Of a stretch of DNA of 34,484 nucleotides, positions 29,112 through 34,484 are shown one piece after another. This stretch comes from Acholeplasmatales bacterium. GTDB taxonomy: Bacteria > Bacillota_I > Bacilli_A > Acholeplasmatales > Acholeplasmataceae. The stretch covers positions 1-34,484 of the forward strand of contig JAITXJ010000049.1 in NCBI GenBank assembly GCA_031284745.1. The letters are read 5' to 3'. Both the position numbers and the translations under genes were made by a program. The notes beneath the pieces were generated by a model that saw nothing but the letters and a program-made list of their open reading frames with translations, ran no database searches and was not told the DNA's origin. Every line of letters begins with the position of its first letter. The stretch's first letter is position 1.

Positions 29112-29697
29112 TTTTTATTTTCCTCACAAACTCTAAAACATTCTCAAAAAGGATTGGCCCTTCGCGAAGTAGTTTAGGGTTATGCGAATCAGTCATATCA
29201 ATCACGGTGGAAGAAAGTCCGATATTATTGTAAATTCCATCATCGGAAATAATATAGTCAAAACATTCATAATAGGCTTCCGCAATATCTTTATAAGTAT
29301 TTAAAGGTTGGGAATCCGTCTTATTGACACTGGTCGTTTTCAAAGGACCATTGACTTTCAAAATTTTCTGGGCAATTTTATTATTGGGAATTCTAACTCC
29401 CACCGTATCCTCACCATAACAATCAAAGTACTTCTTTTTGGCCTTTAAAATTATTGTTAAAGGTCCTGGTAAAAATTCTTTAATAACGGCACGGATCACG
29501 CCATCAACCACAGCCACATTTTTAATCTGATCAAAAGAATAAAACAAACAGGCGATACGTTTATCAGGCGGTCTTTTCTTAGCAATGTATATTTGCTTAA
29601 GTGCCCCTAAATCATAAAGTTTTGCTCCTAAACCAAAAACAGTATCGGTAGGAAAAGCAATCGTTTGACCATTTTTTAAAACGGGAATTTTACTCAT
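29101..29697 (-). CDS. tsaC: L-threonylcarbamoyladenylate synthase (TsaC/Sua5 short form)
   Basis: Makes threonylcarbamoyl-AMP for the t6A37 modification of ANN-decoding tRNAs. The 198 aa sequence contains only the YrdC-like domain (no Sua5 C-terminal domain): AFPTDTVFGLGAKLYD, IYIAKKRPPDKRIACL, LPGPLTIILKAKK, DTVGVRIPNN and SSTVIDMT. It is in the usual prfA-prmC-sua5 order, starts 8 nt inside prmC and has GGAGG upstream of its ATG. Confidence 0.95.
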   Translation of the reverse strand: MSKIPVLKNGQTIAFPTDTVFGLGAKLYDLGALKQIYIAKKRPPDKRIACLFYSFDQIKNVAVVDGVIRAVIKEFLPGPLTIILKAKKKYFDCYGEDTVGVRIPNNKIAQKILKVNGPLKTTSVNKTDSQPLNTYKDIAEAYYECFDYIISDDGIYNNIGLSSTVIDMTDSHNPKLLREGPILFENVLEFVRKIKNEN

Positions 29698-30535
29698 TTT
29701 CGACCTCCTTCAACCTAACCAAGATCATGCGATCACGACCTTGAAAATCTTGATAACTATTAATTTCAATATTCGTCAAATATTGTTGAATTAATTTAAT
29801 TAAATTGTCCTTTTGATTGTACGCATGTTCAAATGCAAGAAGACCCCCATTTTTTAAGTGTTTACTCACAGATTTTAAAACTATTTCGTAACAATCAAGC
29901 CCCTTAGTTCCTCCAAAAAGCGCTAAAGCGGGATCATGGGCCACAATGGGGTCTAGTTTTTCCGCATTCGGAATATAAGGTGGATTACAAACAATGATAT
30001 CGTAAGCTTTAGTAATATTGGAAAACCAGTTAGATAAAACAAAATTTATATCGGCGTTCAAATTTTGAGCATTTTCTTTCGCAATCGCTAAAGCCTCAGG
30101 CGAAATATCACTAGCCTCAACCATCAATCTAGGTTCTTCTAATTTTAAAGCAATAGCAATCGCCCCCGAACCACAACCCAAATCCAAGACTTCCACCTGG
30201 CTTCGGGTAGCGTAAACTTGATCATATTCTTCTAAAACGAGTCCAACTAATTCTTCAGTTTCTTTTCGAGGTATTAAACAATTCTGATTAACTTTTAATT
30301 TATAACCATAAAAATAGGCATAACCTAAAATTTGTTGAATGGGCAGATGCTTTTGTACAAAGAGCTCAAAGCACTCAATAAAACGTGCTTCGACTTTGGA
30401 ATCAAGCGGTAAATCAAAATTAGCATAAAAATCACTTCCTGAAAGCTCGGTAATTTCTAAAAGTAAATAATTTAAATCTTGCGCCTTTTGCGGTGCTAAA
30501 GCCGCATATTTTTTAAGGAGATTATTAGCTGTCAC
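29690..30535 (-). CDS. prmC: Peptide chain release factor N5-glutamine methyltransferase PrmC
   Basis: Methylates the Gln of the GGQ loop in release factors. I start it at GTG 30535, where AGGAGG sits 5 nt upstream, giving 281 aa; a longer TTG frame from 30574 has no ribosome site and would extend the overlap with prfA to 50 nt. The SAM motif DLGCGSGAIAIA and the substrate-Gln motif NPPY (about 184-187) are intact. An 11-nt overlap with prfA, its substrate's gene, implies coupling. Confidence 0.96.
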   Translation of the reverse strand: MTANNLLKKYAALAPQKAQDLNYLLLEITELSGSDFYANFDLPLDSKVEARFIECFELFVQKHLPIQQILGYAYFYGYKLKVNQNCLIPRKETEELVGLVLEEYDQVYATRSQVEVLDLGCGSGAIAIALKLEEPRLMVEASDISPEALAIAKENAQNLNADINFVLSNWFSNITKAYDIIVCNPPYIPNAEKLDPIVAHDPALALFGGTKGLDCYEIVLKSVSKHLKNGGLLAFEHAYNQKDNLIKLIQQYLTNIEINSYQDFQGRDRMILVRLKEVENE

Positions 30536-31595
30536 TAAGACCTCCTGCAAGTAATTTCTTTTGATGATCCGCAATTAAAGCATCAATCACCAAATCAAGT
30601 TTTCCTTCCATCACATAATTTAAGCTTTGAATGGTAAAGTTAATCCGATGATCAGTTAGACGATTTTGGGGAAAATTATAGGTGCGGATTTTTTCCGCTC
30701 TTTCGCTGCGTTTAATAAACTTATGGCGAATTTGTGAATCTTCTGCTTCTTTCTTCGCAACTTGTTCATCAAATAAGCGAGTTTTCAATAATTTATAAGC
30801 GAGATCTTTATTTTCATATTGTGACTTGGCGACCTGTGAGGCCACTTGTAACCCCGTTGGTAAATAGGTCAAACGCACGGCGCTTTGGGTAGTATTAACA
30901 CTTTGGCCACCAGGACCACTCGAAGTCATGGTATCAATTCGAATATCCTTCCAATCCAAATCAAAATCTATCTCATCCGCCTCTGGTAAAACTAAAACCG
31001 AAGCTGTTGAAGTGTGCACTCGTCCTAAAGATTCGGTTTCCGGAACTCTTTGAACCCGGTGAACTCCTGACTCATATTTTAATAAAGAATAGATCGCCTC
31101 ACCACTAATCATAAAAGATAAATTAGAGTAGCCACCCATCGAACCCGCCGTTGCAGTTAAAACGCTAATTTTCCAACCCTTTGCATCACAATATTTCGAG
31201 TACATTCGAAATAAATCACCCGCAAATAGATCGGCCTCATCACCGCCTACCGCTCCTTTTATTTCGACCACCACATTTTTTTCATCCATCGGGTCTTTTG
31301 GTAAGAGTAAGATTTTTAATTCATCTTCTAAATTTAAAATCTCTTGACTTACTTCTTCTTTTTCACTTTCAGCTAAAGTTAAAATATCTAAATCATGTTC
31401 TGACTTAATTAATTCTTTCAGATCCGCTAATGCTTTAATTTTTCGCTGGTATTCTCGATAGCGTGAAACAATTTTTTCCATTTTTTTAATTTCTTTGGAA
31501 AGTTCAATCATTTTCTTATTATCGTTGATACCCGAGTTTAATTGCTCTTGCTTTTCAATATAATTTTTTTCTAATAAATCTAAATATTCAAACAT
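30525..31595 (-). CDS. prfA: Peptide chain release factor 1 (RF1)
   Basis: Releases peptides at UAG and UAA. The 356 aa sequence has the stop-codon tripeptide PET (185-187, the PxT of RF1 in RVPETES) and the catalytic GGQ (229-231 in SSGPGGQSVNTTQSA). First gene of a seven-gene operon down to ywzB. A -10 hexamer at 31614-31609 leaves only a 7-nt leader, GGGTCAT, which cuts into the Shine-Dalgarno-like GAGGG. The genome uses TGA as a stop, so RF2 must be encoded elsewhere. Confidence 0.98.
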   Translation of the reverse strand: MFEYLDLLEKNYIEKQEQLNSGINDNKKMIELSKEIKKMEKIVSRYREYQRKIKALADLKELIKSEHDLDILTLAESEKEEVSQEILNLEDELKILLLPKDPMDEKNVVVEIKGAVGGDEADLFAGDLFRMYSKYCDAKGWKISVLTATAGSMGGYSNLSFMISGEAIYSLLKYESGVHRVQRVPETESLGRVHTSTASVLVLPEADEIDFDLDWKDIRIDTMTSSGPGGQSVNTTQSAVRLTYLPTGLQVASQVAKSQYENKDLAYKLLKTRLFDEQVAKKEAEDSQIRHKFIKRSERAEKIRTYNFPQNRLTDHRINFTIQSLNYVMEGKLDLVIDALIADHQKKLLAGGLSDS

Positions 31596-31798: not shown

Positions 31799-33280
31799 CT
31801 AAATATTATCTCTTTCTTTAATATTTTTATCGGGTTTAAAGCTTAATCCGCTTTGGATTAAAGTAAAGGAAAAATTCTGTCCGTTAAAATCGTATTCTTT
31901 AATCGTTAACTCACCAGCCGCCCCGTGACGATTCTTTTCCACTTTAATGCCAATTTTATTGATTTTTCTCTGGAAGGGTTCGTCGGTTCCGTTGGTTCTT
32001 AAAACTAAGTTGCTTGATTCATTACTATCACTAGGAATTTGATACATAATCATGACCACATCGGCATCTTGTTCGATAGCGCTCGACTCTGCTAAGTTAG
32101 CTAAAGAAGGACCGGTATTAGTTTTACTGCGCATTCCTTTACCCTGCAATTCCGAATCTCGATTTAATTGAGCCGCGACGATGATCGGAATATTTAAATC
32201 TTTCGCTACCCTTTTTAAATTTCGCGAAATATTGGCCACCTGTTCATGCCTTGGAGCTCCTCGTGAAGTATCTCGATCAGCCTTAATTAATTGTAAATAA
32301 TCAATTAAAATAATATCTAATCTTTCATTAGGATGCTGCCTTTTAATATCATTATTTTTTAATTTAGCCCGGGAAATAATGTCATTAACCGTCAGACCGG
32401 GGGTTGCATCAATAAATAACCGTAAACTCTTGGTCTTTTCAATATTAGCCTCTAAACGGGCCCAATCATCTTCATCTAAACGGTTTTCTCGAAAACTTTT
32501 CTGCTTCAACTGATCATTGAAGAGGACAGCATACCTTTGAGATAACTCATCGGTTGTCATTTCCAAAGAAAAAAACGCCACATTCTTTCTTCCTTCAGCG
32601 ATTACTTTTGCAATATTCATAATAAAAGCTGTTTTACCAACCCCGGGACGAGCCGCTACAACAATCACTTCTCCGTTATGAAAACCTGATAAAGTCGCAT
32701 CAATTTCGCGATAACCCGAAAGTAAAGGTCGCGAACCAACATCTTTTTTCAAACGATCTTCTAAATTTTCAAAAGCTTCGGTTAAACTAATAAAAGTATT
32801 AATATCTCGGCGCATCCGAATATTTTGTAACAATAAATCAGCCTCAGTTAAGGATTCTTGGGAATTAGTGGAAGCCACAATTGTTTTGGTTTTAATTTGT
32901 TCAGCTGCTTCCAGAATCGCTCTTTTTATGGAAAGGTCACGCACCGTATTGAGGGCTGAAGGCAAACTATTCAGACCAAAAGTATTATTAGTTAAATCAT
33001 TTAATTCTTCTAAAGTAACCAAACTAGAAGCTAATTTATCATTACTACCATCTAAATACATTCTTCCTAATTGCGCATATGTCGAATAAGGATCAATCGT
33101 CATATTTTGTTTTGCCTTAATCAGTTCAAAAGCTCGAAATATATAAGAAAAACGTTGATCCGAAAAATCTTGATGGCCAATTAAAATAAAAGCCTCATCA
33201 AAACCATCATCATCAACTAAGATCGAAGAAATTATAATTTCTTCCGCTTCTAAACTTGTTAAAGATAAGTCTTTAGACAT
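31799..33280 (-). CDS. dnaB: Replicative DNA helicase (DnaB family; Bacillus DnaC)
   Basis: The hexameric 5'-3' helicase of the replication fork. The 493 aa protein has an N-terminal helical domain (SLEAEEIIISSILVDD), a linker and a RecA-like motor with Walker A RPGVGKT (211-217), Walker B-type DIILIDYLQLI and the family motifs SLEMTTDELSQR and LAESSAIEQDADV. It begins 8 nt inside rplI with no good Shine-Dalgarno sequence, so it is coupled to L9. gdpP-rplI-dnaC is the classical Bacilli order. No stop, intein or frameshift is seen. Confidence 0.97.
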   Translation of the reverse strand: MSKDLSLTSLEAEEIIISSILVDDDGFDEAFILIGHQDFSDQRFSYIFRAFELIKAKQNMTIDPYSTYAQLGRMYLDGSNDKLASSLVTLEELNDLTNNTFGLNSLPSALNTVRDLSIKRAILEAAEQIKTKTIVASTNSQESLTEADLLLQNIRMRRDINTFISLTEAFENLEDRLKKDVGSRPLLSGYREIDATLSGFHNGEVIVVAARPGVGKTAFIMNIAKVIAEGRKNVAFFSLEMTTDELSQRYAVLFNDQLKQKSFRENRLDEDDWARLEANIEKTKSLRLFIDATPGLTVNDIISRAKLKNNDIKRQHPNERLDIILIDYLQLIKADRDTSRGAPRHEQVANISRNLKRVAKDLNIPIIVAAQLNRDSELQGKGMRSKTNTGPSLANLAESSAIEQDADVVMIMYQIPSDSNESSNLVLRTNGTDEPFQRKINKIGIKVEKNRHGAAGELTIKEYDFNGQNFSFTLIQSGLSFKPDKNIKERDNI

Positions 33281-33722
33281 TCTCAGCTAAAACCTCAATA
33301 TGGAAATTGGCTTTAATGTCTTTATATAGAGCGATACTAGCTTGATAAATTCCTAAAGAATTAATATCGCTTTCAATACTAATCTTTTTCTTATCTAATA
33401 AAATATTATGTTGAACATTGAATGCTTCCGCAATTTTTCCTGAAGTTACCGCTCCGAAAATTTTCAAATCCGCTCCAACTTGCATCTTAATAACTACCGT
33501 CTTGCCTTCAATGCTTTCCTTAGCTAGCAACATCGTTTTATAAATTTGTTCCGAAGCTTTTTTAATACTTTCTTGTTTTTCTTCCAGTTCTTTAACATTA
33601 TCTTTGGTTGCTAGAATGGCTTTTTTACCACTAATCAAAAATTGGGCATAACCAGGTTTAACCTCAATAATCTCATCAGCTTTCCCTTTATCTTTGATAT
33701 CCTCAATTAATATTACTTTCAC
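33273..33722 (-). CDS. rplI: 50S ribosomal protein L9 from an internal in-frame start
   Basis: Encodes 149 aa, the normal L9 length, from GTG 33722. The N-domain reads VKVILIEDIKDKGKADEIIE then VKPGYAQFLI, the expected L9 front with its 23S-binding GYA-x-x-x-L motif; a long helix (VKELEEKQESIKKASEQIYK) and the C-domain (FGAVTSGKIAEAF) follow. AAGGAG (33736-33731) lies 8 nt before the GTG, a standard ribosome site. The same frame continues upstream without a stop into the DHH phosphodiesterase, so L9 is a nested product as well as the tail of a longer protein. It overlaps dnaB by 8 nt. Confidence 0.9.
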   Translation of the reverse strand: MKVILIEDIKDKGKADEIIEVKPGYAQFLISGKKAILATKDNVKELEEKQESIKKASEQIYKTMLLAKESIEGKTVVIKMQVGADLKIFGAVTSGKIAEAFNVQHNILLDKKKISIESDINSLGIYQASIALYKDIKANFHIEVLAENV

Positions 33723-34484
33723 GTTTTTATCTCCTTCTTGAAATTCTTTATTGATTTCTTCCTTAATCATATTGAATAGTTCGCTCACACTATATTCTTT
33801 AGTAACCAAAGCCGCCGCGGTAAAATGCCCACCACCACTTAAATTAAGGGTCTCTAAAATTGATTGAACATTAACTGATTTTAAACTACGTGCGGAAACC
33901 TTGACTTCTGTTTCATTGATTTTGCTGATCGCAAAACTTGCCATAATACCTTGAACTTCTAAACCTAAATCACAAAGTTGCGACACTTCCACGGAAGTTA
34001 ATATTTCATTCGAAAGAATGAATAGGAATTTTTCTTCAAATCTAATTGCTTCACTAATAAAGCCATTAAATTTATTAATCTCTTCTAAATCTCGGCGTAG
34101 CCATTGTTTTACCACTTGCGTGTCTGAACCATTTTGAATGAGATATTTTAAAGCATCAAAGGTATTGGAAGATGTCTTATTAATAAGATTCTGTGTATCA
34201 ATAATAATCGCTGAATATAAAATATTGGCCTCTAAATCGGTGTAAGTAATGTTAACATCAATATAAGGTAATAAACCAGTTAATAATTCAATTACCGAAG
34301 AAGAATTGGTATCAATTAGATTGATCTTTCCTTTGATAGCATCCATATCACTACGATGGTGATCGACCACAATAACATTAGTAGCATGTTCAAGAAGAGT
34401 AGGACCTAAAACAATCGCTTTATTTTGCGTATCAACAATAATCAATAAAGAATCCTCATCAATGATTTGTAGGGCTTTCTTTTC
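33273..34484 (-). CDS. gdpP: GdpP-type DHH-DHHA1 phosphodiesterase fused in frame to L9 (5' part beyond window)
   Basis: The frame is open from the window end (34484) to 33273. The first 254 visible codons are a DHH/DHHA1 phosphodiesterase: VVDHHR with TSSNTFDAL and DTQN around the metal site, and the DHHA1 motif SGGGHFTAAALV. With rplI-dnaC next to it, this fits GdpP, which degrades cyclic di-AMP at the membrane. The usual N-terminal membrane, PAS and degenerate GGDEF parts would lie outside the window, so a shorter DHH protein cannot be excluded. Residues KEFQEGDKNVKVIL run straight across the expected gene boundary. Stops (TAA, TGA) lie at the junction in the other two frames, so one indel would separate the genes. 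Confidence 0.85.
   Translation of the reverse strand, partial: EKKALQIIDEDSLLIIVDTQNKAIVLGPTLLEHATNVIVVDHHRSDMDAIKGKINLIDTNSSSVIELLTGLLPYIDVNITYTDLEANILYSAIIIDTQNLINKTSSNTFDALKYLIQNGSDTQVVKQWLRRDLEEINKFNGFISEAIRFEEKFLFILSNEILTSVEVSQLCDLGLEVQGIMASFAISKINETEVKVSARSLKSVNVQSILETLNLSGGGHFTAAALVTKEYSVSELFNMIKEEINKEFQEGDKNVKVILIEDIKDKGKADEIIEVKPGYAQFLISGKKAILATKDNVKELEEKQESIKKASEQIYKTMLLAKESIEGKTVVIKMQVGADLKIFGAVTSGKIAEAFNVQHNILLDKKKISIESDINSLGIYQASIALYKDIKANFHIEVLAENV
33731..33736 (-). promoter_or_regulatory. Internal Shine-Dalgarno sequence for rplI
   Basis: AAGGAG on the minus strand, inside the gdpP reading frame (codons for Glu-Gly), 8 nt before the rplI GTG. Its strength equals that of other operon-internal genes here and supports internal initiation. 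Confidence 0.8.

Follow-up and report, generated by a model that had tools for sequence, protein, structure and literature searches.

The locus described here raises the question of whether a reading frame that joins a signalling enzyme to ribosomal protein L9 (bL9, rplI) is a genuine gene and, if so, whether it yields one protein or two. The window, meaning the whole stretch of DNA analysed, comprises 34,484 nucleotides of an Acholeplasmatales bacterium, and the frame lies at its end. An earlier note had claimed that a DHH-DHHA1 frame runs into L9 without a stop. This was confirmed, as 33273-34484 on the reverse strand is a single open frame of 403 codons with four Pfam domains in the order DHH, DHHA1, L9_N (residues 255-300) and L9_C (322-399), all above the cut-offs, and with zero stops before the end of L9. 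The features are as follows.

33273..34484, reverse strand: fused GdpP-L9 frame of 403 codons, cut by the contig edge (frame, Pfam and NCBIfam)
34206..34475, reverse strand: DHH domain, residues 4-93, carrying the DHH motif plus the aspartates of the second metal site (Pfam PF01368; alignment A1)
33750..34010, reverse strand: DHHA1 domain, residues 159-245, with GGGH (Pfam PF02272; alignment A1)
33723..33740, reverse strand: hinge between DHHA1 and L9, residues 249-254 (AlphaFold model; GGGH-to-L9 distance)
33731..33736, reverse strand: internal Shine-Dalgarno sequence AAGGAG (sequence; kept in relatives)
33720..33722, reverse strand: internal L9 start codon GTG, codon 255 (sequence; kept in relatives)
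33273..33722, reverse strand: ribosomal protein L9, whole, 149 amino acids (PF01281, PF03948; TIGR00158)
31799..33280, reverse strand: next gene, presumably a replicative DNA helicase (translation and the known gdpP-rplI-dnaB order in Bacilli)

The N- and C-terminal domains of bL9 both score above curated cut-offs over their whole length, and TIGR00158 matches L9 with 99.9 bits (cut-off 58.6). AAGGAG (33736-33731) and GTG (33722-33720), separated by 8 nt, stand at the L9 boundary as had been described, and initiation there would give the 149-residue L9. Two out-of-frame stops had also been reported at the junction; the TGA is found at 33721-33719 as given, while the TAA lies at 33729-33727 and not at 33727-33725.

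Judged by its domains and motifs, the upstream part is a putative c-di-AMP phosphodiesterase of the GdpP type. The catalytic residues D18, D41-H42-H43 and D96, as well as GGGH at 217-220, are invariant in alignment A1, and the first GdpP catalytic motif falls in the half absent from the window. The N-terminal TM, PAS and GGDEF parts and the start of DHH are missing from the frame because the window stops at the contig edge, and this N-terminal half was not found elsewhere in the same assembly. The genome also has a gene for a diadenylate cyclase. The fused L9 is the only one in this assembly, which is fragmented, 0.97 Mb in size and 90% complete.

A full-length relative, L126, is available from a separately assembled genome of the same genus (G001). 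It is 47% identical, its frame is open across the junction, and its layout consists of two hydrophobic segments, PAS_GdpP, GGDEF_GdpP, DHH, DHHA1 and L9. GdpP/YybT of Bacillus and Staphylococcus shares the TM, PAS_GdpP, GGDEF_GdpP, DHH and DHHA1 parts with L126, but the Bacillus protein stops before the L9 start, whereas the fused protein continues through L9. Conversely, bL9 is matched over its whole length (TM 0.88 to the L9 of T. thermophilus), but here its frame extends upstream into GdpP with no stop ahead of L9. AlphaFold modelling on alignment A1 (mean pLDDT 88, pTM 0.46) returned well-folded DHH, DHHA1 and L9 parts whose mutual placement the model does not fix, with the hinge adjoining the Shine-Dalgarno codons. 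In a Foldseek search, the best PDB match of the catalytic part was the GdpP catalytic domain, and L9 was also recovered.

The architecture is not new, as NCBIfam already names a GdpP-L9 family, NF011110 (PRK14538), an equivalog of 838 positions with a curated cut-off of 707 bits for the whole protein. The family, 'putative bifunctional signaling protein/50S ribosomal protein L9', has the same domain order and length as the protein described here. L126 at full length scores 716.6 bits, and the window fragment matches model positions 437-834, half of the model, with a score of 353 (E=3.3e-105). The statement that gdpP and rplI are separate genes in Bacilli applies to Bacillaceae, Lactobacillales and mycoplasmas, but the fused form has this named family of its own. 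The family name implies one bifunctional protein; the internal start and the duplicated lineages discussed below are absent from its description, and no account of the GdpP-L9 fusion was found in the open literature. The new element is comparative evidence that one gene gives two products, both under selection.

A search at phylum level brought up genomes of this one class only, so that the survey by family is confined to the class. L9 is present in 97 of 101 genomes of the order, nearly always in a frame of 800-860 amino acids and once per genome; comparison of the junction revealed the same in-frame fusion in nearly all sampled relatives of the order. The fusion also occurs in five families beyond it (f9, f16, f19, f23 and f24), usually as the only L9 gene, while the sampled members of f7, f8, f10-f12, f14, f15, f17 and f20-f22 carry L9 as its own frame. 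Named fused representatives are Acholeplasmataceae (probably family f1, an assignment that rests on the tree), onion yellows phytoplasma, Ca. Phytoplasma mali and australiense, Haploplasma modicum, Anaeroplasmataceae and Izimaplasma. The genes are separate in Haloplasmataceae, Ca. Bathyoplasma, Bacillaceae, Lactobacillales and Mogibacterium. Two f11 genomes with L9 in a 397-aa frame (L109 and L110) were rejected as fusions because the upstream part of this GC-rich, stop-free frame is not GdpP. No L9 was found in two f22 genomes (G306 and G404, 98-99% complete), in line with L9 being dispensable. One f9 genome of genus g87 (G179, 97% complete) has neither an L9 nor a GdpP-L9 match, although two copies of L9 are present in its genus mates; a loss of the locus is possible.

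On a gene tree of 113 sequences, the fused or separate state requires only two changes, either a gain plus a loss or else a pair of gains. All fused members fall in a clade of 82 rows, in which only three rows are separate, forming one family group (f7 and Ca. Bathyoplasma). The tree accordingly fits one ancient fusion with one reversal, or two fusions. The separate genes nested among the fused lineages (L202, L121 and L122) are a possible reversal, and L202 has an in-frame TAA one codon ahead of the L9 ATG. Because the genes are separate in f7, the fusion is either dispensable there or arose twice. In the outgroups Paraliobacillus (L216), Sporolactobacillus (L218) and Haloplasmataceae (L252), gdpP already carries the Shine-Dalgarno sequence of L9 at its 3' end, followed by an in-frame stop ahead of the L9 ATG. 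Losing this stop would suffice to create the fusion.

The internal start of L9 is kept in fusions that provide the sole L9 of their genome. Among 108 distinct genes of this kind, L9 opens with ATG in 101 cases and with GTG in 7, and no other codon was observed; elsewhere GTG makes up 10.9% of valine codons, and the product of the per-gene fractions is 1e-7. The mean Shine-Dalgarno energy of these 108 genes is -9.3 kcal/mol, compared with -9.4 for free L9 genes and -1.6 kcal/mol for 2563 other internal ATG or GTG codons used as a control. In an enlarged set of 145 distinct sole-L9 fused junctions, codon 1 is always ATG or GTG and 143 have a strong Shine-Dalgarno sequence. Two sole-L9 fused genes of genus g7 in the phytoplasma group (L014 and L137) have no clear internal Shine-Dalgarno sequence; in these reduced genomes, free L9 may be weakly made or made by other means. 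Compared with control positions within the same genes, the L9 start site has less structure (p=1e-18), and since the genes are related, such p-values overstate the number of independent observations. A synonymous-codon test of the Shine-Dalgarno sequence was weak per gene and significant only when genes were combined, because this sequence is largely dictated by the linker residues. Looking in the same genome for the 3' end of 16S gave no match, and hence no direct reading of the anti-Shine-Dalgarno sequence; several other genes in the window have good Shine-Dalgarno sites. In-frame internal initiation yielding two products per gene is known from infB (the IF2 forms) and cheA of E. coli. As in these genes, a Shine-Dalgarno sequence and a start within the coding frame would give a C-terminal product, but the short product in this case, a ribosomal protein, has its own gene elsewhere and is not a truncated form of the long one.

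Lineages with a second L9 provide a natural experiment. A separate L9 gene directly follows the fusion in two genomes of genus g17 (G062 and G454; loci L125 and L173/L174), 24 other genomes of which have one L9, and in three genomes of genus g87 (G349, G355 and G361; loci L145-L150). The fused copies of all five tandem genomes lack the internal Shine-Dalgarno sequence, and their codon 1 is ATG in two, AAG in two and ACT in one, so that the start is lost in three. The separate copies keep both signals. Start signals are thus present in 143 and absent from 2 sole-L9 fusions, compared with 0 and 5 for the tandem fused copies (Fisher p=4e-8), a contrast that reflects only two independent events. 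The tandem fused copies have also lost Gly24 (5/5; otherwise 99% conserved) and Gly90, both of which the separate copies keep, as well as the GY(A/G) motif. Gly24 and the GY motif are presumably residues of L9 that contact rRNA. Despite the separate L9, the fused-only L9 domain is still under purifying selection, with dN 0.086, dS 0.75 and dN/dS of about 0.12 in g17, and dN 0.17, dS 0.53 and dN/dS of about 0.32 in g87. The tandem lineages are an apparent division of labour after duplication.

Taken together, a nested gene with two selected products is considered probable. Translation from the upstream gdpP start would give a membrane-anchored PAS-GGDEF-DHH-DHHA1-L9 protein, and in-frame initiation at the L9 GTG or ATG, driven by the Shine-Dalgarno sequence within the linker codons, would give free ribosomal L9. 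The fusion would have arisen when the stop between the Shine-Dalgarno sequence and the L9 start, present in other Bacilli, was lost, probably once, in an ancestor of Acholeplasmatales and Izemoplasmatales-like lineages, and selection would keep both products. That both proteins are made, as the earlier note had proposed, is inferred from sequence comparison and well supported by the conserved start and Shine-Dalgarno sequence, the lack of stops across a deep clade and the selection on the fused L9.

Other explanations have to be weighed against this one. An assembly or sequencing error that joined two genes was a natural concern, as stops lie in both other frames at the junction and the source assembly is fragmented. 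The concern that a one-base error created the fusion is refuted by L126 and nearly all other relatives being open across the junction; the same in-frame junction recurs in well over 100 other genomes, complete chromosomes included, leaving practically no room for an artefact. It is also quite unlikely that only free L9 matters and that the gdpP stop was lost by accident, leaving an idle tail on GdpP. Such a tail would agree with L9 start signals that resemble those of an ordinary rplI, and with GdpP functioning without it in Bacillus and mycoplasmas (general knowledge; PMC10720645). However, about seven single changes to a stop are available within the last ten codons, and about 34 amino-acid substitutions per site have accumulated across the fused clade, so that an unconstrained tail would, by a rough estimate, have gained stops tens of times, compared with the one separate family observed. 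An idle tail also sits poorly with the purifying selection on fused-only L9 domains where free L9 is separately encoded. In 110 of 111 genes, 33-36 residues separate GGGH from L9.

Translation of the fusion only, with L9 joining the ribosome in fused form or being freed by a protease, would account for the open frame and for the fusion being the sole source of L9 in most genomes. It is very improbable nonetheless, as it leaves unexplained both the conservation of the exact start codon and Shine-Dalgarno sequence and the loss of these signals solely where a separate L9 exists. A more serious, though still rather unlikely, alternative accepts both products and has the fusion tether ribosomes to the membrane or sense them, coupling c-di-AMP to translation. 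The fused L9 does keep its fold, and sole-L9 genomes keep the conserved residues; this conservation is not independent evidence for tethering because the same codons make free L9. In both lineages where a separate L9 has freed the fused copy from supplying ribosomal L9, the presumed rRNA contacts have been lost while the fold remains under selection, and the earlier suggestion of a membrane enzyme tied to ribosomes is thus unsupported. With moderate confidence, a role within GdpP is favoured instead, because the presumed rRNA-contact residues decay once a separate L9 exists and the fold is kept. We infer that the C-terminal L9 domain of the two-product gene acts on GdpP itself, through stability, oligomerisation or activity. 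On balance, the L9 frame would have become a structural or regulatory domain of GdpP while still being expressed separately from within that gene, and duplication would have split the roles in two lineages, leaving an L9-derived domain that serves GdpP only and is independent of the ribosome; this fuller account is given a slight preference.

GdpP sets c-di-AMP levels, and a clade-wide, apparently selected fusion with a natural separation of roles makes the link between GdpP and L9 directly testable. For annotation, the locus carries a warning: the only L9 of these genomes, phytoplasmas included, is encoded within a signalling protein and is probably translated from a start of its own.

Expression data are available for species in which the two genes are neighbours. 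In Mycoplasma bovis, where gdpP and the L9 gene are separate, knock-out of gdpP lowers the expression of its neighbours, the genes for L9 and the helicase (PMC10720645), and in Streptococcus pyogenes gdpP is co-transcribed with the L9 gene (PMC3711813). Both data sets fit a single transcript and are uninformative on the fusion. In the window, the presumed helicase gene starts, with an ATG, before L9 has ended, so that the two overlap by 8 nt. Further downstream, beyond this gene, two ORFs on the reverse strand (29690-30574 and 30525-31595) overlap by 50 nt; from their translations, they are taken to resemble a glutamine methyltransferase and release factor 1.
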